A DNA stretch of 55,777 nucleotides, taken from Akkermansia muciniphila (GTDB taxonomy: Bacteria > Verrucomicrobiota > Verrucomicrobiia > Limisphaerales > UBA9464). A program made the translations under genes and the position numbers. Positions 39,180 to 53,426 of this stretch are shown here, in pieces (within the stretch, counting starts at the first letter, position 1; each line of letters opens with the position of its first letter). A model generated the notes under the pieces. The model saw nothing but the letters and a program-made list of their open reading frames with translations, searched no databases and was not told the origin of the DNA. Where the stretch lies: assembly GCA_945898055.1 (NCBI GenBank), contig CAMDGV010000027.1, positions 1 to 55,777 of the forward strand, in the 5' to 3' direction.

Positions 39180-39402
39180 CTAGCTCAGGCGAAGACCTTC
39201 GGGCCAGAGGATGATCAGCGAAAAATCTACCTCTTGTACTAACTGCTTGAATCCGCCCGGCCGCAGAGTGCCTCGAAATCAACCAATACTGTCAACTCCA
39301 CCAGAACAATGCCCATCCCTACGGACACCGAAAAGCCGAAGTCCTCTCCGAATTAACAGAGAAGACGGCCTTTGTTATCCATGCTTGGGGAGAAGAACGA
39401 TT

Positions 39403-40347
39403 TCATCGTTTCGCTTTCTTTGCGGGTTTGCGCAAGGCGTCCAAGAGTGAAGAGAAGTGTGAGAGATCTTTCACTTGGGTCGCACCGATTTTTTCCAAAG
39501 CGTCCTCGTAAGCCAGCATGGCGCGCCCACCGACGAAGAGCGTGACTTCCGCCGGCAGCGACTCGCGCAACCGCGTCAATTCGCCCTCCAGCCGCGGATC
39601 GTCCTCGGGATAGATTAGGCTCAAGGCCACAGCCCGTGCGCGATTTTGTCGCGCGGCACCGGCGATCTCGGCCGCCGGAAGGCTGGCGCCGAGGTAGATG
39701 ACGTGCCAGCCGAGGTTCGCGGCGGCGGCACCGACGAGCAACGCGCCGAGTTCATGAAACTGTCCGGCGGGAGTGGCGACAACGAGCACCGGGGCGCTGT
39801 CCGTGCCGGCGATGGGCCGCGCCGCGTCACTAAGAAAAGTCCGAATGATCGCGCTGGCGAAATGCTCGTGCGCGGCGGTGATGGTGCCGTCGCGCCACAA
39901 GTCGCCCAAGGTATGGAGGAGCGGAGCGAGCAACCGTTGCAACAGGCCTTGCGCTCCCAGTTCGGTCGCGGCACGTTGCATCGTTTCCCCGAGCGCGCGG
40001 GCGTCGAATAATTTCACGGCCGCGACGCAGTCGTCGAGGTAGGTCGGAGCGTCCGGAGCCGCGGTCAGCGCACGTGGGGCGGGGCGTTTCACGCCACGCG
40101 ATTGCTTCGACAGCTCGCGGAGCTTTTCCGTAGGCAACTTTGCGACGTGGCCAATGCGATGCCCGTTCTGCGTGATGTCGCGGAGCAGGCTTAAGCGCTC
40201 GATCTGCTCGTCTGAGTAAAGTCGGCGATTGGTCCCGGTGCGCTCAGGCCCAACGGCGTCGTAGCGTTTCTCCCAAATCCGGATGACATGCCCGCTCAGT
40301 CCCGTGCGCTGGATGACTACTTTGATTCCTTGGTGGGCTTCAGCCAT
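39403..40347 (-). CDS. carH: CarH/LitR-type B12-dependent photoreceptor repressor (MerR family)
   Basis: A 314-residue regulator with three parts. A MerR helix-turn-helix at 1-75 reads KVVIQRTGLSGHVIRIWEKR and RRLYSDEQIERL. A four-helix B12-binding-2 domain carries the diagnostic W151-x9-E161-H162. A Rossmann cobalamin domain has H198 in QFHELGALLVG as the candidate lower Co ligand. In characterised CarH proteins adenosylcobalamin drives tetramer formation and DNA binding in the dark, and light cleaves the Co-C bond and releases DNA. All those residues are present, so light sensing is likely. It is divergent from the lipid operon at 40914. The ATG at 40347 is chosen; a GTG at 40359 would overlap the predicted operator at 40353, so CarH probably represses itself as well. 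Confidence 0.92.
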   Translation of the reverse strand: MAEAHQGIKVVIQRTGLSGHVIRIWEKRYDAVGPERTGTNRRLYSDEQIERLSLLRDITQNGHRIGHVAKLPTEKLRELSKQSRGVKRPAPRALTAAPDAPTYLDDCVAAVKLFDARALGETMQRAATELGAQGLLQRLLAPLLHTLGDLWRDGTITAAHEHFASAIIRTFLSDAARPIAGTDSAPVLVVATPAGQFHELGALLVGAAAANLGWHVIYLGASLPAAEIAGAARQNRARAVALSLIYPEDDPRLEGELTRLRESLPAEVTLFVGGRAMLAYEDALEKIGATQVKDLSHFSSLLDALRKPAKKAKR

Positions 40348-40352
40348 AAAAC

Positions 40353-40374
40353 TAGACACAAATTCGACAAATCA
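40353..40374. promoter_or_regulatory. Candidate CarH operator A (two 11-bp direct repeats)
   Basis: TAGACACAAAT is followed at once by TCGACAAATCA: the shared TnGACA core recurs exactly 11 bases apart, ending 6 bases before the carH start codon. CarH of Thermus binds tandem repeats of about this period. The match to that architecture is an inference from spacing and motif. Confidence 0.5.
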
Positions 40375-40487
40375 GCAACGCTTTGCAAGTGATGACTTTC
40401 AGAAAGCAGATAAAAGAACCAACAGTAGGCTCGAAAATTGAGATTTATGCCGCAGAAAGCCAGCCCTACCGGTCTTAGAATTATTTT

Positions 40488-40523
40488 GAGACGAACTGTT
40501 GACAAACACCCAAACGTTAGACA
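40488..40523 (+). promoter_or_regulatory. Candidate CarH operator B and operon promoter
   Basis: GAGACGAACTG is followed at once by TTGACAAACAC, so GACRAAC recurs exactly 11 bases apart. TTGACA at 40499 is a perfect -35 box; a further TAGACA lies at 40518. A -10 box 17 bases downstream would be CAATTT, which is weak. CarH bound here would cover the -35 box and block the operon on the right. Confidence 0.45.
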
Positions 40524-40673
40524 ATTTTTCAGCACATTTCAGCAACTGCAAAGTAATAATCTGGTCATGAAGACGAAACGTGAACATCCAATGCAGCTTC
40601 CCAAAGCTGCCTCCCTTCTGGGTAGTTCTCCGGGTTCACGCCGAGACAAGAAACAAGGCAGGCCTTCCGAACC

Positions 40674-40823
40674 ATAAAACTCAATCGCCTCCTGACCTTG
40701 ACCGCAATCGTCTCCACCCTAGCTCTTTTCGGAATCGCGCCCGCTGAACCCCAGCCCGCCAGCAAAGACATCGTCGCCATTCCCACCTACCACGTCGTCG
40801 ACACTGAACTGCTGCCGAAGTAA
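40674..40823 (+). CDS. Small secreted peptide, possible non-standard ATA start
   Basis: From the ATA at 40674 the frame reads KLNRLLTLTAIVSTLALFGI and then ends VVDTELLPK, 49 residues in all. It looks like a signal peptide (basic start, 12-15 residue hydrophobic core, APAEP cleavage region) followed by a short polar tail. An AAGGCAGG ribosome-site-like stretch lies 11 bases upstream, at the proper place for a start at ATA. No ATG, GTG or TTG occurs at that point, so either an unusual start is used, the start codon was mutated from ATG, or it is a coincidence. It sits at the head of the light-cluster operon. I know no family for it. Confidence 0.4.
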   Translation: MKLNRLLTLTAIVSTLALFGIAPAEPQPASKDIVAIPTYHVVDTELLPK

Positions 40824-40913
40824 CCGACTTCTGGCGAGAGGGGATCGACTGTTTCTCCGTCCGACCTGATCCAAAATTTACCACCAACCCTTCCAAATCC
40901 TAACCTTCAAACT

Positions 40914-41108
40914 ATGTTTCAAAAAGTTGACTATCCATTTCTTATCGCGGCCTTCGCGAGCTTCCTTGCGAGTGTCGGTCTTTGGTTCCTAGTGAGTCAT
41001 GACTATGGTGCCTACGTGGGAATCTGGGTGCCGAGCATTCTCACTCTTTGGGTCGGCGTGCGCCTCGTGCTCCTATCGCGTGCCTTCAGCAACACGAGAA
41101 AGAATTGA
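40914..41108 (+). CDS. Small two-helix membrane protein
   Basis: A 64-residue protein with two hydrophobic helices (about 8-27 and 33-54) and a short basic C-terminus (SNTRKN). It belongs to no family I recognise. Its stop is only one base before the next small gene, with which it would be cotranslated. As the first well-supported gene of the CarH-divergent operon it may be an accessory membrane peptide. I infer no function. Confidence 0.6.
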   Translation: MFQKVDYPFLIAAFASFLASVGLWFLVSHDYGAYVGIWVPSILTLWVGVRLVLLSRAFSNTRKN

Positions 41109-41109
41109 T

Positions 41110-41316
41110 ATGGCCATTTACATCCTTCCCATTTTTTGCTTTGGGGTAGTCATCACTGGCATTGTCTTACTCGGAATCAAGCAGGCGTCTGATTTAACAA
41201 AACAGTTGGATGCGCAAGCCAATCAATCGGGGTCCGGATCTGGCGGTGCGCACTATGTCTCGGTCGGCCAGGGAACCGCTCCGTTGAAGCCGCTGGCTGG
41301 AACGGCCCGCCCATGA
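41110..41316 (+). CDS. Small single-helix membrane protein
   Basis: A 68-residue protein with one N-terminal transmembrane helix (about 3-24, YILPIFCFGVVITGIVLLGI) followed by a flexible Gly/Ser-rich tail. I know no family. Its stop overlaps the ATG of the SDR gene (ATGA at 41313), a strong sign of cotranslation with the lipid-modification genes. Confidence 0.6.
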   Translation: MAIYILPIFCFGVVITGIVLLGIKQASDLTKQLDAQANQSGSGSGGAHYVSVGQGTAPLKPLAGTARP

Positions 41317-42077
41317 GTCAGTCCACCCAACGCCCCGCCGTCCTAATTCTCGGAGCGACCGGCGGAATTGGCTGTGCGCTGGCGCGGCAACTCTCCCGCC
41401 TCGACTACGCACTGAGCCTCGGGTCACGGGGTGGCGAACGGCTGGACAGCCTCTCTGCAGAGTTGACGGCTCACTCCTGCACGTTCGCAGCCACCGACTC
41501 AGCCTCTGTGGATGCCTGCATCAACAGCGCCTTCCAGAATCACGGTCGGTTGAATGGCGTGGTCAATTGTGTCGGTTCCCTTTTACTTAAACCTGCCCAC
41601 ACCACCACCGACGAGGAATGGGCCGGCGTGCTCGCGACCAATCTTAATTCCGCGTTCTACATTCTCCGTTCCGCAGCAAATCGAATGATGCGCGACGGCG
41701 GCGGTAGCATCGTGTTGATGTCCTCGGCTGCAGCCCAGCGCGGCCTGATTAACCACGAGGCCATCGCCGCAGCCAAAGCCGGGGTGATCGGCCTCGCGCA
41801 ATCTGCCGCTGCGACCTATGCCCGCTACAATATTCGCGTGAACTGTGTCGCGCCCGGCCTTACTCGGACCCCACTCACCGAGCCGCTCACCCGATATGAG
41901 GCGTCGTTAAAAGCCTCCGCCGCGCTGCACCCGCTCGGCCGCATTGGCGAGCCCGAAGAAGTAGCGAGCGCCATTCGTTGGTTTCTCGATCCGCAACAGT
42001 CATGGGTGACTGGTCAAGTGCTCGCGGTGGATGGCGGCCTCAGTTCCGTCCAATCCCGCATGAGCACCCATTCATAA
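41313..42077 (+). CDS. Short-chain dehydrogenase/reductase-like protein lacking the catalytic Tyr
   Basis: A 254-residue Rossmann-fold protein with the NAD(P) motif GATGGIG at 14-20, a NCVGS motif, Ser137/138 and Lys155 of the SDR active site, and a C-terminal GRIGEPEEVASAIRWFLD and VTGQVLAVDGG typical of FabG-like enzymes. The usual Tyr four residues before the Lys is Ile151 (EAIAAAK), so classical SDR catalysis is doubtful. Members of this family recur in light-regulated cyclopropane-synthase operons of other bacteria, which suggests a conserved, perhaps non-classical, role in fatty-acid modification. It overlaps its upstream neighbour by 4 bases. Confidence 0.88.
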   Translation: MSQSTQRPAVLILGATGGIGCALARQLSRLDYALSLGSRGGERLDSLSAELTAHSCTFAATDSASVDACINSAFQNHGRLNGVVNCVGSLLLKPAHTTTDEEWAGVLATNLNSAFYILRSAANRMMRDGGGSIVLMSSAAAQRGLINHEAIAAAKAGVIGLAQSAAATYARYNIRVNCVAPGLTRTPLTEPLTRYEASLKASAALHPLGRIGEPEEVASAIRWFLDPQQSWVTGQVLAVDGGLSSVQSRMSTHS

Positions 42078-42304
42078 ATGCGGAGCCTAGACCCTCTCCA
42101 ATCTTGAGAACCACACTCGACCATGACAATCAGGCCCCTCGGAATTTTCCCGCCGTGGGCCGCCCGTCAACCGGCCGTGCGAGGTATCCGGAACGGGGCT
42201 CTCGCAATCGTTTCGAATTCCTCAACTTGGGAATCTTTACGGCCACCCTAGACGTGGCAGAACTCTCACCGAGAAGGTTTGCCCCAGCGCTCGAGATAAA
42301 GGGC

Positions 42305-42589
42305 CGACAATTTCTCGTCTCAGGGTTCTTCGTCAGCACGGTGGCACTGCTCCACAGAACGTTCTTTAGAAATTCGCTCGTGCACGCTTTAGACACTCTT
42401 GACGAGGGCTGGCACAACAATTACCACCGCTGCATGACCGCCGCGAGGCCGGGCTTCTCTTGGTGGACGATCGACGAGACCTATTACCTGCTCAACGCGC
42501 TTTCCTGGACCAGGCTCATTTGGGAGTTGAAGACGGTTCCCTCAAGCCTTTACGAGGAAGCCACACGGCGCCTGGAAACAGCCACCTAA
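42305..42589 (+). pseudogene. C-terminal remnant of a fatty-acid desaturase
   Basis: About 95 residues read GFFVSTVALLHRTFFRNSLV, then LDEGWHNNYHRCMTAARPGF and WWTIDETYYLLNALSW before the stop at 42589. This is the C-terminus of an acyl-CoA (delta-9 type) desaturase, with the third histidine box HNNYHR. Normally the NSLxH helix and the GEGWHNNHH box are separated by 15-20 more residues (the RYxTxDxSRN part). Here they are nearly joined, so an internal deletion is likely. The N-terminal two thirds, with the other His boxes, are absent. The open frame extends upstream to 41978 but without homology. It sits between the SDR and FAD genes, where a desaturase would fit a furan or cyclopropane fatty-acid operon. 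Confidence 0.75.
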
Positions 42590-42604
42590 CTTCCACGCGA
42601 TCCC

Positions 42605-43879
42605 ATGAAAACCCTCGCCATCATCGGCACCGGCATCGCGGGTCTCGGCTGCGCACATTTTTTGCACAAGCGCTTCGACCTCACGCTCTACGAGCAGAAC
42701 AACTACGCGGGCGGGCACACGAACACGATCGTGGTTGGGGAGGAAGGGAGGGAGGTGCCGATCGACACCGGGTTTATGGTTTTCAATCACGTCACCTATC
42801 CGCATCTGACGCGCCTCTTCCGAGAGTTGAATGTCGAGACCTACCCGACAGAGATGTCCTTCAGCGTGCAGCACCGGCCGAGCGGGCTGGAATACAATGG
42901 CGGAAGTCTGAACCTGCTCTTCGGCCAACGGCGCAATCTGGTAAACCCGCGGCACTGGCGGATGCTTGCGCAGATCAACCGCTTCAACCGCGAGGCAGTG
43001 CCGGCCCTCAAAGACGCGCAGTTTGCCAACCACAGCCTGCGCGACTACGTGGTTGAGCGCGGCTATGGCGACGACATGCTGCACCGTTATCTCGCCCCCA
43101 TGAGCAGTGCGGTGTGGAGCACGCCGCCGGACAAAATGCTCAACTTTCCCGCAATGACGCTTCTCCGCTTCTGGCACAATCACGGATTCCTAGGGCTCGA
43201 TACGCAGCATCCGTGGTTCACGGTCACCGGCGGCGCCAAATCTTATGTCGCCAAGATCATCGCGCCATTTCGCGACCGAGTGCAGCTCGGAAGGAAAGCA
43301 GTGCGAGTGACGCGAGCGGAAGGTCGCGTAACGGTCAATTCGGCGGATGGAACGTCGCGTGATTTCGACAAAGTCATCCTCGCTTGTCACGGTGATCAAG
43401 CACTCAACTTGCTCGAACATCCGACGGCCATGGAGAGTCGCCTGCTCCGCGAGTTCCACTACCAAGCCAACGTGGCGACCCTGCATACCGACCCATCCTT
43501 CATGCCGAACACCCGACGTTGCTGGGCCGCATGGAACTACCGGCTCGATGGCAGCGACGACGGCGGAGTCCTCCCGACCACGCACTACTGGATGAACCGC
43601 CTCCAACGCCTCTCCGAGCGGCAGGATTATTTCGTCTCGCTCAATGCACACGAACGCATCGCGCCGGAAAAAATTTTGCGCCGGATCGACTACGAACATC
43701 CCCTCTTCAACCTCGCCGCCATCGCCGCGCAAAATGAACTGCCCGCCCTAAATCGCCTCTCGCCCGAACAATCCACCTACTACGCTGGCGCCTGGTTTAA
43801 ATATGGCTTCCACGAAGACGGCTTCGCCAGCGCCCTAGAATGCGCCCGGGCCGTGACTGGAGATCCGATCTGGTCATGA
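42605..43879 (+). CDS. FAD-dependent NAD(P)-binding oxidoreductase (COG2907 type)
   Basis: A 424-residue flavoprotein with the N-terminal dinucleotide fold IIGTGIAGLGCAHFL and the acidic strand end LYEQNNYAGGH. A long amine-oxidase-like body follows (EVPIDTGFMVFNHVTYPHLT, VTGGAKSYV, VILACHGDQAL), ending in YYAGAWFKYGFHEDGFASAL, a FAD-contact segment. This family is encoded next to DUF1365 and cyclopropane-synthase-like genes in many bacteria, with a proposed role in fatty-acid oxidation or furan-ring formation. Its stop overlaps the DUF1365 ATG (43876). It starts 15 bases after the desaturase remnant. Confidence 0.92.
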   Translation: MKTLAIIGTGIAGLGCAHFLHKRFDLTLYEQNNYAGGHTNTIVVGEEGREVPIDTGFMVFNHVTYPHLTRLFRELNVETYPTEMSFSVQHRPSGLEYNGGSLNLLFGQRRNLVNPRHWRMLAQINRFNREAVPALKDAQFANHSLRDYVVERGYGDDMLHRYLAPMSSAVWSTPPDKMLNFPAMTLLRFWHNHGFLGLDTQHPWFTVTGGAKSYVAKIIAPFRDRVQLGRKAVRVTRAEGRVTVNSADGTSRDFDKVILACHGDQALNLLEHPTAMESRLLREFHYQANVATLHTDPSFMPNTRRCWAAWNYRLDGSDDGGVLPTTHYWMNRLQRLSERQDYFVSLNAHERIAPEKILRRIDYEHPLFNLAAIAAQNELPALNRLSPEQSTYYAGAWFKYGFHEDGFASALECARAVTGDPIWS

Positions 43880-44673
43880 ACTCATGTCTCTACGAATGCA
43901 CCGTGATGCATCATCGGCTGGAGCCGAAGGAGAACCGTTTCCGTTACGGAATCTTCATGTTTGCCCTCGATCTCGATGAACTCGATGCGCTCGACGTGCG
44001 CGGATTCAGTCGCAATCGCTGGAACATCTATACCTTCCGCGACCGCGACCATCTCACGCTGCCCGGTCTGGAAACGGCGAGTCTCCGCGAGAATCTCAGC
44101 ACATGGCTGGCGAATCAGGGTGTCCACCTTCCTGCCGGAGGACGCGTCATGCTGGTCACTCTCCCGCGCGTGCTCGGCTATATCTTTAATCCCGTCTCCT
44201 TCTACTTTTGCTCCGACGCCACCGGCGCTCCGCTCTGCGCCGTTGTCGAGGTGGGGAATACCTTCCGCGAACTGAAGCCGTATCTCCTGCGCGCGCCAGA
44301 GGTCGATGGCCGCTTCCGCCTCGTCACGCCGAAGCACTTCTACGTCTCACCTTTCTCCGCGCTCGACCTCTGTTTCGACTTCAATCTGCGCGTCCCCGCC
44401 GAGACCCTCCACCTGCACATCGACGACCGCGCGGGCGAACGTCCCGTGCTGCTCAGCGCGCTCACCGGACGGCGCGCGCCGCTCACTTCCGCGCGATTAC
44501 TCTGGCTCACGTTCAAGTATCCCCTGATCACGCTCAAAGTGATCACGCTCATCCACTGGCACGCGCTGCTCCTCTGGCTGCGCCGCCTGCCGTGGCACCG
44601 CAAGTCCGCCCAAGCCGGACTCCAACGCGACGTCTTCCATCCGCATTCCTCCATCGCTCCAAAGATCCCATGA
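43876..44673 (+). CDS. DUF1365 family protein
   Basis: A 265-residue protein with hallmarks of DUF1365: SCLYECTVMHHRLEPKENRF at the start, MFALDLDEL, then LVTLPRVLGYIFNPVSFYFC and VVEVGNTFRE, and the LVTPKHFYVSPFSALDLCFD segment. No enzymatic role is established. The gene is a near-constant partner of cyclopropane-fatty-acid-synthase-like genes and the COG2907 oxidoreductase, so it probably acts on membrane lipids. The neighbours overlap by four bases on both sides (ATGA), giving tight cotranslation. The C-terminus has a hydrophobic helix that could touch the membrane. Confidence 0.92.
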   Translation: MNSCLYECTVMHHRLEPKENRFRYGIFMFALDLDELDALDVRGFSRNRWNIYTFRDRDHLTLPGLETASLRENLSTWLANQGVHLPAGGRVMLVTLPRVLGYIFNPVSFYFCSDATGAPLCAVVEVGNTFRELKPYLLRAPEVDGRFRLVTPKHFYVSPFSALDLCFDFNLRVPAETLHLHIDDRAGERPVLLSALTGRRAPLTSARLLWLTFKYPLITLKVITLIHWHALLLWLRRLPWHRKSAQAGLQRDVFHPHSSIAPKIP

Positions 44674-45962
44674 ATCACGGCCTCACCATTGCCGATCCGC
44701 TCCCGCAGACTCGCGCGAAAACCAGATCCGATCTCTATCAGCGCCTCGTGTTCGCCAGTTTTGCGAAGATGAAGGCAGGAGGCCTCCGGCTCGAACTGCC
44801 CGATGGTTCGTGCGTGCAATTCGGCACGCCAGACGCCGACGTGTGCGCGACGATTAGAGTGCTCAACCTGGCCTTCTTCCGGCGCTGCGTGCTCTTCGGC
44901 GACGTGGGTTTTGCGGAGAGTTACGTCGATGGAGACTGGGAAACGGATTCAATCGAGCGGGTCATTTCCTGGGCCATCCAGAACGTCGAAAAATCGCCGT
45001 CGATGAGCGGTTCAAAAGTGTGGACTGTCGGGCTGAATCTGCTGCGCTTCTATAACCGTGTGCAGCATCTGCTCCGACCGAACAACGAACGTAATGCCCG
45101 ACGCAATATCGCGGAACACTACGATCTCGGCAACGATTTCTACCGCCTGTGGCTCGACCCGACGATGACCTATTCGAGCGCCTATTTTACCGACGCCGGC
45201 GAATCGCTCGAGGCCGCGCAGACCGCGAAATACGATGCACTCTGCCGAAAGCTTCAACTCCGCTCGAGCGATCATGTGCTCGAGATCGGCAGCGGTTGGG
45301 GCGGCTTCGCCTGCCACGCGGTGAAGCGCTACGGCTGCCGTGTCACCACGGTCACGATCTCGCAGGCACAGCTCAAGTTTGCCCGCGAGCGCTTCGAGCG
45401 AGAAGGCGTCGCCGACCGCGTGGAGATTCGCTTGCAGGATTACCGGACGATCGAAGGCTCTTTCGACAAGATTGTTTCTATCGAGATGATGGAAGCGCTC
45501 GGCGATCGCTACCTCGCGACTTACTGCGCGAAGCTCCACCAGTTGCTCAAGCCCGACGGGCTCGTCGGCCTCCAATACATCACCGTGCCTGACTCGCGGC
45601 ACGCGGAGTTACGCCGCGGGGTGGACTTCATTCAAAAGCACATCTTTCCCGGATCGCTTGTGCTCAGTGTCGGCCGAGTCAACGAAACCCTGAATCGCAC
45701 CGGCGATCTCTTTCTGCATCACCTCGAAGACCTTGGTTCCAGTTACGCGAGGACGCTAAAGCTCTGGTGGCGGAGTTTCAATGCGCACCTCGACGGGGTC
45801 CGCGCGCTCGGCTACGACGAGCGTTTTGTTCGGAAGTGGAACTACTATCTCCAGTACTGCGAGGCCGCTTTTACGCGCCGCAATATCAGCGTCGTCCAGG
45901 CGATTTACACCCGCCCAAACAACTTTCATCTGAATACCCCAGCCGAAAAAATCTCCAGATGA
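44670..45962 (+). CDS. Cyclopropane-fatty-acyl-phospholipid synthase-like methyltransferase 1
   Basis: A 430-residue SAM-dependent methyltransferase. A Cfa-type N-terminal lipid-binding domain (RLELPDGSCVQFGTP, GDVGFAESYVDGDWETDSIE) precedes the catalytic fold with HYDLGNDFYRLWLDPTMTYS, the SAM motif VLEIGSGWGGFACHAV, the active-site region SIEMMEALG, and FIQKHIFPGSLV near the end. Cfa enzymes add a methylene from SAM across a phospholipid double bond at the inner membrane. The related UfaM branch adds a methyl group towards furan fatty acids. In the segment matching E. coli LLHTIG the His is Gln (VGLQYITV), so the product may not be a simple cyclopropane. It overlaps both neighbours by 4 bases. 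Confidence 0.92.
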   Translation: MNHGLTIADPLPQTRAKTRSDLYQRLVFASFAKMKAGGLRLELPDGSCVQFGTPDADVCATIRVLNLAFFRRCVLFGDVGFAESYVDGDWETDSIERVISWAIQNVEKSPSMSGSKVWTVGLNLLRFYNRVQHLLRPNNERNARRNIAEHYDLGNDFYRLWLDPTMTYSSAYFTDAGESLEAAQTAKYDALCRKLQLRSSDHVLEIGSGWGGFACHAVKRYGCRVTTVTISQAQLKFARERFEREGVADRVEIRLQDYRTIEGSFDKIVSIEMMEALGDRYLATYCAKLHQLLKPDGLVGLQYITVPDSRHAELRRGVDFIQKHIFPGSLVLSVGRVNETLNRTGDLFLHHLEDLGSSYARTLKLWWRSFNAHLDGVRALGYDERFVRKWNYYLQYCEAAFTRRNISVVQAIYTRPNNFHLNTPAEKISR

Positions 45963-46291
45963 TCCTGTTCCTGCGCATCGCCTTTATCTTCGTCCTCGTC
46001 GCGATGCTTGGCGTCACCAGTTGGGCGAGCTCGATCGTAGCCCTGTGGGAGACGCCGCGCGCGGTGGCCACTCATCCGTGGTTCATCGCCACGCTCTTCG
46101 ACACTTATTTCGCCTTTCTCACTTTCTACTGCTGGCTCGCTTACAAAGAAACGTCAACTCTCGCGCGGGGCGCTTGGCTGATCGCAATTCTTCTGCTCGG
46201 CAATATCGCGATGGCGATTTACATGCTGATCCAACTCTTCCGCCTGCCAACGCATGCGCGGATCGAGGAACTCCTGCTGCGTCGCAAATGA
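45959..46291 (+). CDS. DUF1475-like small membrane protein
   Basis: A 110-residue protein with three hydrophobic helices (about 5-29, 45-60 and 70-92). It has the feel of DUF1475, seen in WETPRAVATHPWFIATLFDT and YFAFLTFYCWLAYKE, with conserved Trp and Asp positions. The function is unknown. The family is known mainly from light- or stress-linked lipid clusters like this one. The ATG overlaps the stop of the cyclopropane-synthase-like gene, and its own stop overlaps the next ATG. Confidence 0.75.
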   Translation: MILFLRIAFIFVLVAMLGVTSWASSIVALWETPRAVATHPWFIATLFDTYFAFLTFYCWLAYKETSTLARGAWLIAILLLGNIAMAIYMLIQLFRLPTHARIEELLLRRK

Positions 46292-46797
46292 ACTCGCCCC
46301 CAGTGATGGAAGAGCAACCTGCGGCAGCACATCCGTCATTCTGGCAGCGGCGCGCGGTCACGCCGATTGTGGCACAGCTTCGACTAGGCATTACGCCGGA
46401 GAAGCTCGCGCTGACTCTCGCGCTCAGAGTCGGGTTGGGCATCTTTCCAATCCCCGGCCCCACCACGCTGCTTTGCGGACTCGCCGCCGTTTCCCTTCGG
46501 CTCAATCAGCCGGTGATTCAACTCGTGAATTACTTCACCTCTCCGCTGCAACTCGCGCTGATTATCCCGATCTATCGCGCCGGAGAAATTCTCTTTTTCC
46601 AGACGCCAGTCCCGCTTTCTATCCCACTCCTCTTCGAACGTTTCAAGGCCGACTTCGGCCTGTTTCTGCGCGACCCCGGGATGATAGCCGTTCAGGGCGT
46701 GGTCGCCTGGTGCCTTCTAGCATCACTGATCGTGCCGGTACTCTATTTCAGTTTTCGGGCTCCGCTCCGGACACTTGCCGGAAACCTCAAAGCTTAA
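46288..46797 (+). CDS. DUF2062-like membrane protein
   Basis: A 169-residue protein with a polar N-terminus and three or four hydrophobic helices (for example LRVGLGIFPIPGPTTLLCGL and a final AVQGVVAWCLLASLIVPVLY). The LGITPEKLALTLALRVGLGI and NYFTSPLQLALIIPIYRAGE pattern matches DUF2062 domains, which occur alone or fused to glycosyltransferases and have no assigned role. Here it is embedded in the lipid operon, overlapping its upstream neighbour by 4 bases and ending 4 bases before the next ATG. Confidence 0.72.
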   Translation: MNSPPVMEEQPAAAHPSFWQRRAVTPIVAQLRLGITPEKLALTLALRVGLGIFPIPGPTTLLCGLAAVSLRLNQPVIQLVNYFTSPLQLALIIPIYRAGEILFFQTPVPLSIPLLFERFKADFGLFLRDPGMIAVQGVVAWCLLASLIVPVLYFSFRAPLRTLAGNLKA

Positions 46798-46801
46798 CCC
46801 A

Positions 46802-47575
46802 ATGCTGACCCTCTTTCTCATCGCCCTCGGCATCGCTGCCACCTATTTTGCGGTCGCGTGGGCAGTCTGCGTGAAGATTAAGAACTACGGGTTTCTTGAT
46901 GTCGCGTGGTCTTACGGCATCGCGGTGCTCGCCCCAATTTACGCACTGATCGGTCCAGGCCATGCGCCGCGAACAGGGATCGCCACTGCCATTGGAGTCG
47001 CCTGGAGTTTACGGCTCGGCACTTTTATTCTCATCCGGGTGCTGAAGCATCACCCAGCCGAGGACGTGCGCTACGAGACGTTGCGTGCCCGCTGGCCGGG
47101 ACCCGGAATGTTCTTAGCCTTCTTCGAACTACAAGCCCTCGTCGTCGTCATCTTGTCGCTGCCATTTCTTTTCGCCGCTTTCAACCCGAGCCCGCTGAGG
47201 CTAATCGAATACGCGGGCCTGACCCTTTCCTTCCTCTCCCTCTGCGGGGAAACGCTCGCGGATTGGCAGATGAAGCAATTCAAGAGCAAACCGGCGAATC
47301 GTGGTCAGGTCTGCCAGTCCGGGCTCTGGCGTTTCTCAAGGCACCCGAATTACTTCTTTGAGGCGCTCATCTGGGTGGGCTTTGCGCTCTTTGCGCTCGG
47401 TTCGCCGCATGGATGGATCGCCCTGATTTGTCCGCTGATGATGCTCTATTTTCTGCTCAAAGTCACCGGCATCCCGTTGACCGAAGAGTATGCCATTAAA
47501 AGCAAGGGTGAGGCGTATCGCGAGTATCAGCGCACCACGAATGTGTTCATCCCCTGGTTCCGCAAGTCATCATGA
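46802..47575 (+). CDS. DUF1295 (steroid 5-alpha-reductase-like) membrane protein
   Basis: A 257-residue multi-pass membrane protein. The N-terminal helices contain [20 protein letters not shown]. The C-terminal domain has [20 protein letters not shown] and [20 protein letters not shown], the conserved end of DUF1295 and of the isoprenylcysteine/steroid reductase-like superfamily. RHPNYF is the family's NADPH/SAM-associated motif. It likely modifies lipids within the inner membrane, and the pairing with methyltransferases supports fatty-acid or lipid reduction. Its stop overlaps the next ATG (47572). Confidence 0.9.
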
Positions 47576-48603
47576 TCCCTCTCGACCACCTCCTCGAAAC
47601 GAACGTCATTCCCGATCTCGTGATCCGTCTCGGCATCCGACGGCTCCTCACCAAAACGCTGCGTGACAAGAAGAAGCTCAACGTCGAAGCGGACCAGGCC
47701 GCGCTCTTGGCCCACGTGGCCGAGCTCAAACAAAGCCCGATCGCCGTCCAGACCCGTGACGCGAACGAGCAGCACTACGAAGTGCCGACGCGCTTCTACC
47801 AACTCTGCCTCGGCCGACGGTTAAAATACAGCTCCGCGCTGTGGGACGCCAATACGACAACTCTCGACGAAGCTGAGGAGAAGATGCTCGCTCTCACCTG
47901 CGTGCGTGCCGACCTCGCCCCCGGCCAGCGCATTCTCGAACTCGGCTGTGGCTGGGGCTCTCTCTCTCTCTGGATGGCAGAGAAGTTTCCGACCGCGCAG
48001 ATCACAGCTGTCTCCAATTCGCGCACGCAAAAGGCTCACATCGATGCCGAAGCCGCAAGGCGCGGATTTGCGAATCTCGAGATCATCACTTGTGACATGA
48101 ACGCCTTCGACATCGACCGCACCTTCGACCGCGTGGTCAGCGTCGAGATGTTCGAGCACATGAAGAACTACCAAGCACTGCTTGCGCAGGTCGCACGCTG
48201 GCTGAAGCCGGGCGGCAAGCTCTTCGTCCACATCTTCACCCATCGCAAGTTGGCCTATCACTACGAAGACAAAGGCCCGGATGACTGGATGACGCGATAC
48301 TTTTTCGCCGGTGGCCAGATGCCGAGCGACGATCTCCTGCTTTACTTCCAAGACGATCTGCGCATCGAGCAGCACTGGGGGGTGAGCGGTACGCATTACC
48401 AAAAGACCGCCGAGGCGTGGCTCAAAAATATGGACGCCAACCGGCAGGAAATCTGGCCTCTCTTCGAGGAGACTTACGGTGCGGACAAGACCCGGCGTTG
48501 GTGGGCTTACTGGCGAGTCTTTTTTATGTCCTGTGCCGAGCTGTGGGGCTACCGCGGCGGTGATGAGTGGCACGTCTCTCATTACCGTTTTCGACGACCT
48601 TGA
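47572..48603 (+). CDS. Cyclopropane-synthase-like SAM methyltransferase 2
   Basis: A 343-residue methyltransferase with a short N-terminal helical region and the Cfa/MMAS-like fold: [23 protein letters not shown] motif [20 protein letters not shown], and [20 protein letters not shown] with the FEH triplet, then [18 protein letters not shown]. It differs from the upstream paralog in having no large N-terminal lipid-binding domain and in keeping FEH and VHIF. Close relatives are cytoplasmic or membrane-surface enzymes of the coclaurine-methyltransferase/cyclopropane branch. Two different methyltransferases in one operon suggest two successive methylations or two substrates. It is the last gene of the tightly overlapping run; 144 bases separate it from the propeller gene. 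Confidence 0.9.
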
Positions 48604-48747
48604 TCTCTGCTGAATCATGTCATCATCCATTGTTTTTCTGGTTTCGGGCGCAGCCATCCGGCCGAACATCCCCAAAACCCGCACGGCTCTGCACCAAGCC
48701 CAATCCAATCCGCAACCATTCGTCTCAGGCCATTAATCCACCTCTCC

Positions 48748-50025
48748 ATGAACCTAATCCACTTATTCCTTGCGACCACCTTGATCGGCGCGGCGCTTCT
48801 ACCAAACACCTCCTTGGCTGCCGAATCAGCCTGGCCCCAATGGCGCGGTCCAAACCGAGACGGACAATTCACGGGCCCGGCGTGGCCGGAGAAGCTCGAC
48901 ACGAATCATCTCCACCTCACCTGGCGCGTCGAACTGGGGCCGAGCTACTCCGGTCCCATCGTCTCAGGCGATCGCGTGTTCACCACCGAATCAAAGGAAA
49001 AGAAATTCGAGGTCGTCACCGCTCTCGATCGCACGACTGGCAAGGAACTCTGGCGTGCGCAGTGGGATGGTGCGATGACCGTGCCGTTCTTCGCCAAGGC
49101 GAACGGCGACTGGATTCGCGCCACGCCAGCTTGTGATGGCGAGAGTCTGTTCGTCGCCGGCATGCGCGACCTGCTGGTGTGCCTTGATGCGCAGACGGGG
49201 AAGGAGCGCTGGCGGTTTGACTTCGTGAAGAAGATGCAAGCGCCGGCACCTGATTTCGGCTTCATCTGCTCGCCTCTCGTGGATGGCGAGTTCGTTTACG
49301 CGCAGGCGGGAGCAAGCTTTGTGAAGCTGAACAAGCGCACTGGCGAACTAGTCTGGCGCTCGCTCATCGACAAGGGCGGCATGTGGGGCAGTGTCTTTTC
49401 GTCGCCGGTGTTTGCTGAACTCGCGGGCCGGCGGCAACTGGTCGCGCAAATGCGCGAAAAGCTTGCGGGCGTGGATCCGGCGGACGGCAAGGTGCTGTGG
49501 GAGCAACCCATTGAAGCCTTTCGTGGCATGAACATCCTCACCCCGGTCGCTGACAAGGACACGATCTTTACCAGTACCTACGGCGGCAAAACCATCGGTT
49601 TCAAAGTCGCGCAGGCCAACGGCAATTTCACCCTTACCGAGACATGGAAACATAAAGCGCAAGGCTACATGAGCACGCCAGTCGTCATCGACGGCGTCGC
49701 TTACAACCATCTCAAAAGCCAGCGCATTATGGCCATCGAAGTGGAGTCAGGACGCGAGCTTTGGACGAGCGATCAATCCTTTGGCAAATACATGAGCCTC
49801 GTGGCCCAAGGCGACCGCATCCTCGCGCTTGACCAGCGCGGACAGTTGTTCCTGTTCCGCGCGAACAAGCAAAAGTTCGAGCAGATCGACAAACGCAAAC
49901 TCACCGACGCCGAGACCTGGGCGCACCTCGCCAGCGCGGGCGATCAACTCTTTGTCCGCGAGCTGAACGCACTCACCGCCTACCAATGGCGGGGTCGTGA
50001 CTCCAAAGCTGCTTTGACTCCATGA
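48748..50025 (+). CDS. Secreted PQQ-type beta-propeller protein
   Basis: A 425-residue protein with a signal peptide (about 1-24) and, after WPQWRGPNRDGQF, a series of propeller blades with the PQQ-like WR and G-x-x-W repeats (RTTGKELWRAQWDG, AQTGKERWRFDFV, KRTGELVWRSLIDK, ADGKVLWEQPIEAF, VESGRELWTSDQS). The WPQWRGPNRDG opening is typical of the PQQ-like repeat proteins of Planctomycetes and Verrucomicrobia, many of which bind no PQQ. It is probably periplasmic. Its stop overlaps the ATG of the chimeric uvdE-tspO remnant (50022), so it sits inside the light-cluster operon. Confidence 0.88.
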   Translation: MNLIHLFLATTLIGAALLPNTSLAAESAWPQWRGPNRDGQFTGPAWPEKLDTNHLHLTWRVELGPSYSGPIVSGDRVFTTESKEKKFEVVTALDRTTGKELWRAQWDGAMTVPFFAKANGDWIRATPACDGESLFVAGMRDLLVCLDAQTGKERWRFDFVKKMQAPAPDFGFICSPLVDGEFVYAQAGASFVKLNKRTGELVWRSLIDKGGMWGSVFSSPVFAELAGRRQLVAQMREKLAGVDPADGKVLWEQPIEAFRGMNILTPVADKDTIFTSTYGGKTIGFKVAQANGNFTLTETWKHKAQGYMSTPVVIDGVAYNHLKSQRIMAIEVESGRELWTSDQSFGKYMSLVAQGDRILALDQRGQLFLFRANKQKFEQIDKRKLTDAETWAHLASAGDQLFVRELNALTAYQWRGRDSKAALTP

Positions 50026-50396
50026 GGTTAAGTTCACCACCTTCTCTCCGCCTCGGTCTCTGTTGCCAGTTCGCGGTTGAGCCCATCAAGTTCTGCACCA
50101 CGACGCCGGCGTTCCTGCGCAAGCTGGCGCGCATCGAACAGCTGCATCGTCTGTCTGAACTTTGTCTCGCCAATGCGGAAGCTCTGCTTGCTTCACTCCG
50201 CTCTTGCGCAGGGCACGGCATCAGCGGATTCCGCATCAATCGCCGGATTCTCACCCTCAAGACGCATCCCGTCGCCGCCTACGCTGTGACCGATCTTCCC
50301 GTGCATCGCTCCGCCGCGTGGCTTCTTGCTCCGTATCTGGCCTGGGGGAGCTTTGCTACGGTGCTGAACTTCACCCTCTGGCGACTGAACTCCTGA
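50022..50396 (+). pseudogene. In-frame chimera: UV-damage endonuclease N-terminus fused to TspO C-terminus
   Basis: A 124-residue open frame that joins two genes. Residues 8-83 (RLGLCCQFAVEPIKF, LSELCLANAEALLASLR, GHGISGFRI and TLKTHP) match the first quarter of UvdE/UvsE, a TIM-barrel endonuclease that nicks 5' to UV photoproducts. Residues about 97-124 (AAWLLAPYLAWGSFATVLNF then TLWRLNS) match the last transmembrane helix of TspO/MBR, a porphyrin-binding membrane protein. A deletion running from within uvdE to within tspO would give exactly this. Neither half can work: the endonuclease lacks most catalytic residues and TspO lacks four of five helices. The frame is open and translationally coupled to the gene before it, so a short product may still be made. 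Confidence 0.75.
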
Positions 50397-50411
50397 ACGG
50401 TCCCAACTCAA

Positions 50412-51002
50412 ATGACAATGCTCTCCGCAACTTCTCTCCACCCTCTCGCCGCGCTCCTCTGTGCGTGTCTTGCCATCACCCTGAAGGCTGACTCCGCCTC
50501 TAATAAAATGATCTTCGACTTCCAGGCGTCAACCAATTCCACGAAGTGGCAAGTCGTCAACGACGACGTGATGGGCGGCGTGTCCACCAGTCAGTTCCAA
50601 CTCCTCACGAACGGCGGCGCAATTTTCAGCGGAGTGGTCTCGCTGGAGAACAACGGCGGTTTCGCCTCGGTGCGCTCCAACCCCGTGCGGGAAAATCTCA
50701 GCGATACCAGCGCCTTCGCGCTCCGCGTGCGAGGTGATGGACGGCGTTACAAGTTCACCGTGCGCACCGAGGCGGGTTTCAACGCCCCGAATTATCAGGC
50801 CGAGTTCACCACGAAGCGCGGCGAGTGGGAAGAGCACCGTCTCGCCTTCAAAGATTTCATCCCGACCTTGCGCGGACGCGTGCTGACCGACCTGCCGCCC
50901 CTGATTCCTTCCAAAATCACTTCAGTGGGCCTCATCATCTCGGACAAACAAGCAGGACCGTTCCGGTTGGAGATGAGCTGGATCAAAGGGGTAACCCCGT
51001 GA
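50412..51002 (+). CDS. CIA30-domain protein (NADH:ubiquinone oxidoreductase intermediate-associated-like)
   Basis: A 196-residue protein with a weak signal-like N-terminus (LAALLCACLAI) and a CIA30 galactose-binding-like fold: WQVVNDDVMGGVSTSQFQLL, FSGVVSLENNGGFASVRSNP, FALRVRGDGRRYKFTVRTE and SVGLIISDKQAGPFRLEMSW. In mitochondria CIA30 (NDUFAF1) assists complex I assembly; bacterial versions are carbohydrate-binding-like and of unknown role, often near oxidoreductases. It lies 15 bases after the chimeric remnant, and its stop overlaps a GTG start for the next gene (50999), so it is cotranslated with it. Confidence 0.85.
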   Translation: MTMLSATSLHPLAALLCACLAITLKADSASNKMIFDFQASTNSTKWQVVNDDVMGGVSTSQFQLLTNGGAIFSGVVSLENNGGFASVRSNPVRENLSDTSAFALRVRGDGRRYKFTVRTEAGFNAPNYQAEFTTKRGEWEEHRLAFKDFIPTLRGRVLTDLPPLIPSKITSVGLIISDKQAGPFRLEMSWIKGVTP

Positions 51003-52084
51003 TACCGGAGATGAAAAGGCTGGCCCGCCGCCGGTTGTGGCTCGGCATCACGAACGTCGGCTTCTGGGTATTGACGACCTCGCTCGGCCTTTACTGGCTG
51101 GCGAGCTCTGACCCCAGCGACCTCGGCATCCGTCGTCTCAGTTTCCTATTGGGGGCGGCGGTCGCAGTGCAGGCGGTATTCGATTTCATCGGCGGCAGGT
51201 TGCTGATGCCCGAACCACGGCCCACGATCAAGGCCTTCCTTCAACGCTGGTCGCGCGGCGCGTTCGGGCATACGCTGGTGCTGACCGGAGTGGGATTACT
51301 GAGCTACGCCAGCTTCCGACTCTCCGGCGGATTCTGTTTTGCCATCCTGCTCGCGACAGCGGGATTGGCGCTCGGCCGTCGACATATCTTCCGCGCGATG
51401 AACGGTGTTGCCATCAAGGAAACTCCACATAATGGCGGAACGCTTCTGGTCGCCAACCCCACCGACCCGGCATTCACCGGGGGGATCGTAGGTTTTGGAC
51501 GTCGCGCCAAAAGCCTGATCCCAGGACGTTGGCTAGCAACTTTGCCGAAGGAGGAACTCTCCGTGGAATCAGGTCGGCGTCAGTGGCAGATAGAGAGCAA
51601 CCTGACCAGACGGGCCTTCATCTTGGTTTTAGGCTGGAATCTCATGGGCGCTTACGCCGGCTCGCTCGCCTTTAAGCTGGCCGAACGAACACCGGCCGAG
51701 GCATTGCTCGCCCACGCCTGTTGGATGACACTTTGGACGTTTGGCAGTCTGCTGATACTGCCGACGTTGAGCCGCAAAGCCGTTTTCAAGGCCGACCGCG
51801 CTGCTGCCGATTCCGGCCGCGACCCGCGACCATGGATTGCTCGCTTTCCCAACTTGGTCGGCGAAGACGGCAGTTCAAATTCCAACGTGCAAAACATCTT
51901 TTACCCGATTCCATCAGCCTCGCAGCGGTCGCGCCAACTTGAGAAACCTCTGTCAGGCTTTGTTGCAGGCAATCTGGCGCGCAGCAACCTCTACTACTCT
52001 TGGGCCACGTTCACCTTGTTGGGGCGTGCCGTGCATTGCAATGTCGGCCGCCCGGAGCTTTGGGTTTTCCCGCCCTCGGCATGA
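50999..52084 (+). CDS. Multi-pass membrane protein of unknown function
   Basis: A 361-residue protein with about six hydrophobic helices in two groups (about 18-38, 48-66, 82-98 and 102-118, then 205-227 and 240-262) separated by a soluble region. The soluble part and the end (KADRAAADSGRDPRPWIARF, FYPIPSASQRSRQL, then RSNLYYSWATFTLLGRAVHC) recall the layout of M48-type membrane peptidases (the EyrAD loop). No HExxH is visible, so it could be a degenerate relative or something else. The overlapping GTG at 50999 (GTGA with the CIA30 stop) is the likely start; a longer upstream frame is antisense to nothing useful. It probably belongs to the light-cluster operon. Confidence 0.6.
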   Translation: MIPEMKRLARRRLWLGITNVGFWVLTTSLGLYWLASSDPSDLGIRRLSFLLGAAVAVQAVFDFIGGRLLMPEPRPTIKAFLQRWSRGAFGHTLVLTGVGLLSYASFRLSGGFCFAILLATAGLALGRRHIFRAMNGVAIKETPHNGGTLLVANPTDPAFTGGIVGFGRRAKSLIPGRWLATLPKEELSVESGRRQWQIESNLTRRAFILVLGWNLMGAYAGSLAFKLAERTPAEALLAHACWMTLWTFGSLLILPTLSRKAVFKADRAAADSGRDPRPWIARFPNLVGEDGSSNSNVQNIFYPIPSASQRSRQLEKPLSGFVAGNLARSNLYYSWATFTLLGRAVHCNVGRPELWVFPPSA

Positions 52085-52145
52085 AACGGACCGCGGCCCG
52101 GTCACCCGTGTTTTCGAACTCCCGATCCAGAAATTTATACTGCCA

Positions 52146-52526
52146 ATGCAGGTCAACCAGTCCTACTCTAACGCAGTGGAAACTCTGACGATTTCTCTCC
52201 AGGCGTTGGTGGCCGCCTCGATCTTCTTCGTGTGGGTCGTGCGCTACGACAGCGCCATCCAAGACTTCAAGCGCTACGCCCTGCCGGACTGGTTGCGAGA
52301 CCTAGTGGGCATTCTGAAGCTGACGTTCTCGCTGCTCCTGCTCATCGGCATTGAGCGGAAGCCTTTCGCCATCGCCGGCGGTCTGGGCATCGCCTTCCTG
52401 ATGGGATGCGCCTTTATCATACATCTGCGGGTGAAGAATCCGTGGTTCAAGATGCTGCCCTGCCTCATCCTGCTGGCCCTTTCTGCGGTCATCGCGTGGA
52501 TCAATTACCGGCGGTTGAACCCGTAG
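52146..52526 (+). CDS. DoxX-like small membrane protein
   Basis: A 126-residue protein with four hydrophobic helices. The layout (SLQALVAASIFFVWVVRY, LPDWLRDLVGILKLTFSLLL, AIAGGLGIAFLMGCAFIIHL and a final ALSAVIAWINYR) resembles DoxX-family proteins, small quinone-oxidoreductase-associated or redox-stress membrane proteins. The match is by topology and the LPxWLRxLVGILKL segment, not by a strict signature, so the family call is tentative. It lies 61 bases after the preceding gene and directly before the photolyase remnant. Confidence 0.6.
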   Translation: MQVNQSYSNAVETLTISLQALVAASIFFVWVVRYDSAIQDFKRYALPDWLRDLVGILKLTFSLLLLIGIERKPFAIAGGLGIAFLMGCAFIIHLRVKNPWFKMLPCLILLALSAVIAWINYRRLNP

Positions 52527-52532
52527 GCCAAC

Positions 52533-52807
52533 ATAGATTTCGCTTCGACCCTCGCCTGGTTTCGGTCCGATTTGCGCCTGACCGACAATCCGGCGATTGC
52601 CGCCGCCGTAAAGCGCGGCCGCTAGACGAAGAGGAAACGTGGTCGCCGGGCGGGGCGTCACATTGGTGGTTGCATCAATCCCTCGCCGAGCTGGACGCTC
52701 AATTGCGCGCCGCACCAGCAGAAATTCTGCGGACTGCTGGGGTAGAGCTTGGAAACAATTACCCGCATCCTATGGTCAGCGACGAAACTGGCTCGCGAAC
52801 GGTTTAA
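52533..52807 (+). pseudogene. Gutted DNA photolyase/cryptochrome-family gene
   Basis: The first frame reads TLAWFRSDLRLTDNPAIAAA, the canonical photolyase N-terminus, and hits a TAG at 52623. In another frame WSPGGASHWWLHQSLAELDA continues the antenna domain, then jumps without a gap to the extreme C-terminus (ILRTAGVELGNNYPHPMV), ending at 52807. Photolyases are about 450-480 residues; roughly 90 remain. The FAD-binding helical domain is deleted and a frameshift or small deletion splits the N-terminal piece. Functional photolyases repair UV dimers with blue light and are classic members of CarH/LitR regulons, so this scar fits the operon it ends. Confidence 0.8.
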
Positions 52808-53426
52808 ACGGTTGTCGAAGTGAATTACGAGCCTTGAGAAATCAAAGGCCGCCCCGGGGCGGTTTGAACCCACCACGCGACGCCTCTGATCTAAGGCGTC
52901 GAAATCTTATTTAAACGCCACAGGAGGCGCGGAGGGGCGCTCCGATCTCAATCCTAACTCACTGAACTCGGAAGTTAAACCACGCGCGCAAACGGCAATC
53001 GAGCGCGTGCCTATTTTGGATGGTGATTTTCCAATGGCTTCAAGATCCTAAGAAGCGTGGCGCAGATCCGTCTGACCGACCGCGAGATAGACCCGAGTGT
53101 TAGAGAGAAAGCTCAGCATCTGGGAAGGCTATCAAGAATGGACCGCAGGGTTGAAGGATCCAAACAACTCAGCCTTCGAGAGTCCCGAGCTTTTAAATTC
53201 AGCGATCCGTAGTTGGATTTCAGCAAGACCACGACGCTTACGAGACGGTACCATTGAGTTCATCCGCGCAGGCGACACCCAAGTAGGACGAATTGGTGAC
53301 CATGGGGATGGGCGTACGCTTACAGTCAAGTGATCCGTAAATCGGTCAGAGTGCTCCGGTGGTATGCCGCCGCCAACGACATCACATAGGTCGCCGAGCG
53401 TCTTCGTCTGCCACCCGGATTTCTTC
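52808..53426. other. Gene-poor spacer with two hairpins
   Basis: No gene is well supported. CCGCCCCGGGGCGG (52849-52862) is a perfect 14-base palindrome, followed by TTTG, and could be a terminator. CGACGCCT (52878) pairs with AGGCGTCG (52894-52901) across an 8-base loop without a T-run. A 78-codon open frame at 53097 starting with GTG has no ribosome site and no homology I can see. Confidence 0.45.

Follow-up and report, generated by a model that had tools for sequence, protein, structure and literature searches.

The DNA analysed here, referred to as the window, is a stretch of 55,777 nucleotides that makes up one contig (CAMDGV010000027.1; C27 in our numbering) of a 4.63 Mb verrucomicrobial genome deposited as Akkermansia muciniphila (GCA_945898055.1; 136 contigs, completeness 95%). 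It contains a locus in which a gene for a CarH-type regulator (39403–40359, minus strand) is divergent from a run of genes that share one direction (40914–52526, plus strand), and the middle of this run appears to encode a pathway for furan fatty acids (FuFAs). Pfam scans of the window proteins recovered all of the genes that an earlier interpretation of the letters alone (the sequence-only reading) had named, in the order that it gave. The ATGA overlaps that it had pointed out lie at 41313, 43876, 44670, 45959, 46288, 47572 and 50022, and a GTGA junction at 50999 separates the CIA30 gene from the next membrane gene, mem51.

Seven genes form the core of the locus, and all are open and full length. 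The first three, adjacent and intact, are of the UfaD, UfaO and UfaM types, as assigned by family and context rather than by direct alignment with the Rhodobacter sequences. The UfaD-like flavin adenine dinucleotide (FAD) desaturase (42605–43879, plus strand; PF01593, amine-oxidase type, 7e-25) has the partners described for RSP1091 and RPA2571 (PMC7380195). It is followed by a UfaO-like DUF1365 protein, a predicted furan-forming oxygenase (43876–44673, plus strand; PF07103, 251 bits), and by a UfaM-like methyltransferase, Cfa1 (44670–45962, plus strand; PF02353 (CMAS), 1e-85, 287.5 bits), for which the nearest solved structure is Cfa (193 bits). UfaO is reported to contain DUF1365; together with UfaM and the FAD protein UfaD it suffices for the production of 9M5-FuFA, to which FufM adds a second methyl group (PMC7380195). 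Three membrane-protein genes come next, for a small DUF1475 protein (45959–46291, plus strand; PF07343, 2e-8, 34.8 bits, profile positions 136–230 of 236), a DUF2062 protein (46288–46797, plus strand; PF09835, 9e-8, 32.6 bits) and a steroid 5-alpha-reductase-like DUF1295 protein (46802–47575, plus strand; PF06966, 2e-66, 224 bits). The structure model of the DUF1475 protein has six helices and a predicted local distance difference test score (pLDDT) of 69.6.

The core ends with a second methyltransferase, Cfa2 (47572–48603, plus strand; CMAS family, 148.5 bits), which is 25% identical to Cfa1. The sequence-only reading had spoken of two Cfa-like methyltransferases; both do belong to the CMAS family and Cfa1 is Cfa-like, but the best solved match of Cfa2 is coclaurine N-methyltransferase (279 bits, against 106 bits for Cfa); a pair of true Cfa enzymes was rejected on this evidence, Cfa2 being FufM-like instead. 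A further comparison is provided by the Arabidopsis protein AT4G33110, which we take to be coclaurine-methyltransferase-like. FufM is 37.9% identical to it (PMC10940516), and the CFA2 of Chlamydomonas is also labelled coclaurine N-methyltransferase (PMC4067076). Given this best match, the Arabidopsis relative of FufM and the algal label, FufM is the best reading for the type of Cfa2 that homology offers, and the predicted product is consequently a dimethyl-FuFA. The interpretation of the core as the FuFA pathway gene for gene (UfaD-UfaO-UfaM, DUF1475-DUF2062-DUF1295 and then a FufM-like gene) is well supported by these family assignments and by synteny. The link to furan fatty acids that had been suggested is tighter than guessed, with UfaD-, UfaO-, UfaM- and FufM-type genes all together.

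To place the core in context, an alignment of DUF1475 was scanned against named genomes; this gave 302 loci, the best 80 of which were fetched. Titles of 75 of the 80 are those of Verrucomicrobiota members (the exceptions being L108, L117, L121, L137 and L146), and several titles (Akkermansia, Klebsiella) are in our judgement those of probably misnamed metagenome-assembled genomes. The order desaturase-FAD-DUF1365-Cfa1-DUF1475-(DUF2062)-DUF1295-Cfa2 was kept in 80 of 80 loci wherever the genes were detected (tblastn matches at 1e-5, plus strand), a check that is trivial for loci cut short. Detection ranged from 34 loci for the desaturase and 44 for DUF2062, through 53 for FAD, 66 for DUF1365, 68 for Cfa2, 72 for Cfa1 and 76 for DUF1295, to 80 for DUF1475 (by construction). 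The genes, including DUF1475-DUF2062-DUF1295-Cfa2, are therefore syntenic in relatives and not scattered, as the sequence-only reading had anticipated, whereas its view of DUF1475 and DUF2062 as a local extension fails, since both are common in this cluster. Beyond the phylum, DUF1295 adjoins a FufM-like gene in all four of the proteobacterial plasmid regions inspected (from 46 matching records), where genes for FAD and DUF1365 proteins are also nearby; two of the four carry a sigma factor and an anti-sigma factor, one of the latter named ChrR.

The regulator has the composition of a CarH/LitR class I-type protein, with MerR, four-helix and B12-binding domains (PF13411/PF02607/PF02310; MerR domain PF13411 at 8e-14 and two B12-binding domains), and CarH (5c8d, 9e-26) is among its best matches to solved structures. 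The presence of both B12 domains distinguishes it from the class II LitR type, which has the four-helix part only. The CarH signatures described by the sequence-only reading are there: the W-x9-EH motif is WRDGTITAAHEH, and the lower-axial cobalamin His lies in PAGQFHELG. The DNA-binding motif RxWE(R/K)RY is present as RIWEKRY, and in the B12 motif D/ExHx2G...SxT/V...GG the His, Gly and GG are kept, Q taking the position of D/E and I that of T/V. The reading frame of carH is uninterrupted, the ATG at 40347 being the likelier start, and the genome encodes a cobalamin adenosyltransferase. Elsewhere in the genome (G000:C31:15711-16661) lies another CarH-type gene, with 47% identity to the window CarH. 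Of 59 relatives searched, 39 have CarH-type matches, and almost all of these belong to the window genome's own family.

Two DNA elements lie beside carH. The published CarH repeat is nnnnTnnACAn in 11-bp tandem (PMC9304148), and a predicted CarH site of this kind, a tandem 11-bp direct repeat TNGACA-N5-TNGACA, is found at the carH start (40353–40369, no strand assigned), as the sole match in the window (0.06 expected). This tandem pair occurs in 11 of 185 loci, representing 8 distinct places, all of which are carH intergenic regions, and in none of the loci that lack carH. A predicted promoter/operator element divergent from carH, TTGACA-N12-TTAGACA (40499–40523, plus strand; 0.03 expected), was found exactly in five distinct places in all of the sequence compared, always divergent from carH (the window, G012, G055, G068 and G403). 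The proposal of a CarH-type regulator beside an operon that modifies fatty acids is upheld by the domains, the motifs and these elements that the locus has in common with other carH loci. No tandem TnnACA repeat was seen anywhere in two other loci that have homologues of window genes (L196 and L185).

Decayed genes are interspersed with the intact ones, and four such relics had gone unmentioned in the sequence-only reading. The first is a fasciclin (FAS1) gene (40650–40817, plus strand; 8e-12 by tblastn against the FAS1 protein in the same-genus locus L095), certain over 40650–40781 and with a weak end to 40817. The second is an acyl-CoA desaturase (42134–42589, plus strand) that is 45% identical over 160 amino acids (1e-33) to the intact desaturase at the same place in L103; it lacks its N-terminal half and an internal piece of 19 amino acids, and has no Pfam match. 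The third is a composite of part of UvdE and the C-terminus of TspO (50022–50396, plus strand; PF03073, 2e-8; PF03851, 4e-4, 20.1 bits, below the cut-off of 24). The fourth is a DNA photolyase represented by N- and C-terminal pieces in different frames (52545–52774, plus strand; PF00875, 2.5e-7 and 1.5e-4, the second below the cut-off), which also matches cryptochrome/photolyase structures; the photolyase-type protein of L185 gave no match to it. The UvdE and TspO pieces, both related to light damage, are fused in one open frame, and the relics here tend to retain the ends of genes, with the middle gone.

Relatives reveal what such genes may once have formed. In the same-genus genome G012 (L095), carH faces two fasciclin genes, homologues of the small membrane open reading frames (ORFs) sm1 and sm2 of the window, a PF04244 photolyase-related gene and mem51, past which lie amine-oxidase-type and DoxX genes. 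In the order-level relative G353 (L185), mem51 again occurs together with a photolyase-related gene and with DoxX-like genes. A fasciclin gene and carH also diverge in G068, G157 and G149; such fasciclin genes were noted at L095 7819-9007 and in L075, L076 and L084, in Verrucomicrobiota-type genomes. To our knowledge, fasciclin has not been described as a carH partner. The FuFA core would sit between two native ends, one consisting of the fasciclin relic, sm1 and sm2 and the other of mem51, DoxX and the photolyase relic, and the simplest history suggested by this arrangement is that the core was placed amid a native carH-photoprotection cluster.

A foreign origin of the core is also indicated by phylogeny. 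Same-family relatives keep DUF1365-Cfa1-(DUF1475)-DUF1295-(Cfa2), mostly with UfaD elsewhere, and in the six loci compared from the same genus (L032, L033, L041, L043, L047 and L052) that cluster adjoins an ABC-F-like gene (ABC-F and carotenoid-type labels were assigned by eye). In the window genome, the ABC-F-like gene adjoins a DUF1365/DUF1295 composite relic from which Cfa1 is gone (G000:C3:17401-17877, equal to L064 9402-9878), which by comparison is the ancestral FuFA locus of this genome in relic form. In a UfaD tree of 62 rows from fetched loci (rows with a stop or with fewer than 330 aligned amino acids excluded), the window UfaD is sister to that of L106, to which it is 82% identical, within a 15-row clade (Shimodaira–Hasegawa-like approximate likelihood ratio test 99); among the 14 other rows, 7 bear the title Chthoniobacteraceae or Spartobacteria, and the window's own family is absent. 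Vertical descent of UfaD within the family was rejected: a clade of the window with 10 own-family rows, chosen after the tree was seen, has a p value of 5e-16 in the approximately unbiased (AU) test. The discordant UfaD tree and the relic at the ancestral site together indicate that the core was gained horizontally. The window copies are the genome's sole UfaD match at 1e-40 and its sole intact DUF1365. Between the window and L106, six genes differ at codon positions 1, 2 and 3 by 0.11–0.19, 0.07–0.12 and 0.41–0.48, respectively; the ratio of third-position differences to those at first or second positions is 2.5 to 6.6, a pattern as under purifying selection.

We read the locus as a CarH-controlled photo-oxidative-stress operon with a working, horizontally acquired core that makes FuFAs on membrane phospholipids, and we give this reading a probability of about 70%. 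We infer control by light from the regulator together with the predicted sites. In darkness, CarH carrying adenosylcobalamin would occupy the TnnACA repeats that lie between carH and the operon, keeping the operon repressed; on illumination the cofactor would be broken and CarH released, and a lack of B12 would have the same effect. From what may be a single transcript, UfaM (Cfa1) would methylate an unsaturated acyl chain, UfaD would then desaturate the methylated chain, UfaO (DUF1365) would insert oxygen from O2 and close the furan ring, and FufM (Cfa2) would add the second methyl group to yield a dimethyl-FuFA, with DUF1295, DUF2062 and DUF1475 as putative membrane partners of the pathway. 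The derepressed cell would in this way build dimethyl-furan acyl chains that protect it against singlet oxygen. A paper by Lemke from 2014 reportedly speaks in its title of a scavenging role.

A number of observations weigh against this reading, most of them concerning the regulator and its sites. The CarH model of NCBIfam, the best of that library for this protein, gives 116 bits, far below its cut-off of 400, and does not justify calling the protein a CarH equivalog. The Q that replaces the D/E of the Thermus CarH B12 motif is present in all 15 aligned CarH rows, the window included, and the His after the motif Trp, which is the bis-His ligand of Thermus CarH, occurs in 0 of these 15 rows (Arg in the window); in the same alignment, the EH pair is missing from the CarH of L077. 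The His after the Trp is described as occurring in many but not all CarH proteins and as not essential (PMC9304148). Of the 25 distinct carH places in the sequence compared for this pair (a tally of our own), 17, including L106 and L095, do not have the tandem TNGACA pair. No sigma-70 match was found at the divergent site, in a scan of the window that gave 1 site where 3.1 are expected by chance. Across six repeat phases around TTGACA-N12-TTAGACA, TnnACA is counted 6 times in L095, 5 in L096, 3 in L075 and 2 each in L078 and the window; the predicted divergent site is thus weak in the window, which argues against tight repression. As for the enzymes and the history, the FufM identity of Cfa2 rests on clade resemblance, not on comparison with R. 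palustris RPA0924, and given the decayed neighbours the locus itself may be decaying. The window carH groups with same-family rows (88/87), but a pairing of the window and L106 CarH proteins is not rejected (p-AU 0.068), and carH may therefore have been transferred along with the core.

CarH is also rarely found near related cores. Among the 65 loci with more than 5.5 kb of upstream sequence, FAD was detected in 48, the desaturase in 34 and CarH in 3 (L106, L120 and L140), and on this count CarH control of the core is the exception. The strain record L177 (Brevifollis gellanilyticus) likewise has the core, and no carH was found in the stretch fetched from it. Such rarity, together with the two intact repeat phases where L095 has six, the decay of the fasciclin gene in first position and the paralogue at C31:15711-16661, is what an alternative would draw on in which the FuFA pathway is real but not light-controlled, the operon being constitutive or served by another promoter and CarH left over or acting elsewhere. 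We consider this unlikely: the carH frame is intact, the carH-side tandem pair is exact, and TTGACA-N12-TTAGACA is exact and common to four distant carH places. Other genomes with distant CarH proteins, moreover, also have CarH near the core. One more such neighbourhood (G403/L078) came from a separate CarH search; the window and L078 CarH proteins are 45% identical, and the L120 CarH is nearer to the C31 paralogue (45%). Because these proteins are so distant from one another, the association of carH with FuFA genes seems to have arisen more than once. In L120, carH is separated from the FuFA core by genes for a sigma factor and a cyclase-like protein (4952-6112), an arrangement in which two-layer control is possible.

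A second alternative concerns the product, which could be methyl-branched or cyclopropane rather than furan, with DUF1365 catalysing another oxidation and Cfa2 a true Cfa or active on another lipid. Both methyltransferases do match Pfam CMAS, the enzyme identities rest on homology, and the chemistry of DUF1295, DUF1475 and DUF2062 is undefined. Even so, the homologues of UfaD, UfaO and UfaM found together here are those of the published necessary and sufficient set (PMC7380195), and Cfa2 resembles coclaurine N-methyltransferase more closely than it does Cfa, so that we regard a non-furan product as rather improbable. That the locus is a non-functional remnant, a photoprotection island in decay whose intact frames are recent or neutral survivors, is very unlikely despite the four relics within it and the one at the ancestral site, as the seven core genes are open and full length, differences from L106 are skewed to third codon positions in six genes, and the genome's only UfaD match and only intact DUF1365 are the window copies.

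The CarH-controlled operon proposed here is a variant of something already known, as ufa clusters linked to LitR/CarH or to ChrR have been described. Among the closest systems is the RpoE-ChrR singlet-oxygen regulon and FuFA pathway of Rhodobacter sphaeroides (ufaM, ufaD and ufaO), with the FufM of R. palustris, which has the same enzyme types (PMC7380195). The table of the R. sphaeroides RpoE regulon lists phrA photolyase, cfaS, RSP_1091, RSP_1090, an SDR (short-chain dehydrogenase) and fasciclin (PMC7074977), the photolyase, SDR and fasciclin being fellow members just as at our locus, which on this analogy resembles a large part of that regulon brought together in a single stretch of DNA. 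The locus differs from Rhodobacter in that its genes are in one place, with a CarH-type regulator in place of sigma-E/ChrR and with extra DUF1475, DUF2062 and DUF1295 genes, and in that its photolyase and fasciclin are relics. A light-inducible cluster of Pseudomonas (phrB, SDR, FAD and ufaM) likewise combines photolyase, SDR, FAD and ufaM genes with a neighbouring regulator of the LitR/CarH family; that LitR is of class II, with the four-helix part only, and acts with LOV proteins (PMC9758184), whereas the locus regulator has both B12 domains. CarH-controlled carotenoid operons have CarH with 11-bp TnnACA repeats (PMC9304148), as predicted here; the predicted target at our locus, by contrast, is membrane fatty acids. 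In L096 and L098, carH faces genes that are carotenoid-type by eye. Nearly the same order as at the locus is seen in a FuFA cluster on an Acinetobacter plasmid (L204; lipocalin-desaturase-FAD-DUF1365-Cfa-DUF1295-FufM-like), and one on a Burkholderia plasmid (L203) has the same genes as that of Acinetobacter; DUF1475, DUF2062 and CarH, all present at the locus, are not annotated in the plasmid stretches inspected. Finally, the singlet-oxygen (SAK1) set of Chlamydomonas includes CFA1, the coclaurine-type CFA2, DUF1365, DUF1295 and fasciclin (PMC4067076). Although this is a eukaryote with another regulator, the overlap indicates that in the alga, too, singlet oxygen induces much of this set of genes jointly.

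Literature searches, from which subscription journals and preprints were mostly absent, returned nothing joining CarH, Verrucomicrobiota and these genes or CarH, Verrucomicrobiota and cobalamin; for FuFAs with Verrucomicrobiota they gave only papers on diet, gut or livestock by title, for DUF1475 only plant papers, and for DUF1295 with DUF1365 only the alga. If the CarH-controlled reading is correct, FuFA synthesis would extend to a further phylum, beyond the two alphaproteobacteria in which it was worked out (PMC7380195), and would come under a direct light sensor, and DUF1475, DUF2062 and DUF1295 would be named as testable parts of the pathway. DUF1295 is a strong candidate for a missing function, as it turns up on proteobacterial plasmids and in the singlet-oxygen response of the alga as well as in Verrucomicrobiota. 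A bolder version, which we consider less likely than not, is that the three DUF proteins are undescribed membrane steps that tailor or move dimethyl-FuFAs in Verrucomicrobiota, and that the cluster was recruited to B12 light sensing several times independently, with light arming the membrane before singlet-oxygen damage occurs by way of a CarH that lacks the bis-His ligand.

The remaining genes of the run flank the core. Upstream, sm1 (40914–41108, plus strand; 74% identical to its counterpart at the same place in L095) and sm2 (41110–41316, plus strand; 57% over 37 amino acids, same place, L095), neither of which the sequence-only reading had named, precede the SDR gene (41313–42077, plus strand; PF13561, 4e-55). 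A 54% homologue of the SDR in L098 points away from carH, ahead of carotenoid-type genes.

Downstream of Cfa2 are a PQQ/BamB-like propeller (PQQ_2; 48748–50025, plus strand; PF13360, 5e-48) and a CIA30 protein (50412–51002, plus strand; PF08547, 3e-51, 174 bits), which had been proposed as an extension of the cluster. For CIA30, membership of the conserved unit is rejected (0 of 80 loci). The result for the propeller is mixed, as a distant one does lie inside some related clusters, at another position: of 95 loci that have both DUF1365 and Cfa1, 9 (7 distinct places) carry between these two genes a propeller 25–30% identical to that of the window, and none was seen in conserved order after Cfa2. 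Eight of these nine are 66–100% alike and not close to the window propeller, which marks them, on sequence similarity, as a different lineage at a different place. Examples are L139 (7134-8264), L156, L158, L162, L040 and L058, several of them from the window's own family. CIA30 matches occur in 30 of 387 genomes of the phylum; among six CIA30 neighbourhoods fetched, only L196 (G353) has another window gene at high identity, with a 54% CIA30 two genes after a 60% SDR, and the SDR and CIA30 genes may therefore share an origin. In L200, fasciclin-domain matches lie beside CIA30.

The last two genes encode membrane proteins. Mem51 (50999–52084, plus strand) has no Pfam family, a structure model with a mean pLDDT of 41, and homologues in L095 and L185 (60% and 69%); it was found in 2 of 387 genomes of the phylum, its own included, and its homologues adjoin photolyase-related (PF04244-type) genes in both other places seen (G012 and G353). 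Its ADRAAADSG stretch is reminiscent of M48 peptidases without HExxH. The DoxX-like protein (DoxX_2; 52146–52526, plus strand; PF13564, 3e-12) has counterparts no more than about 4 kb from mem51 in L095 and L185. An ORF at 52406–52807 overlaps the photolyase relic and is probably not a gene. A scan with Rfam gave 0 matches, and a scan of genes from 36059 to 55230 found no extracytoplasmic function (ECF) sigma factor or ChrR anti-sigma factor. Positions 52878–52901 hold a terminator-like stem, such sites not being enriched in the window (18, against 14.1 by chance). At the left end of the window, 39 kb from the locus, an ORF at 9–623 is ECF sigma-like by eye.

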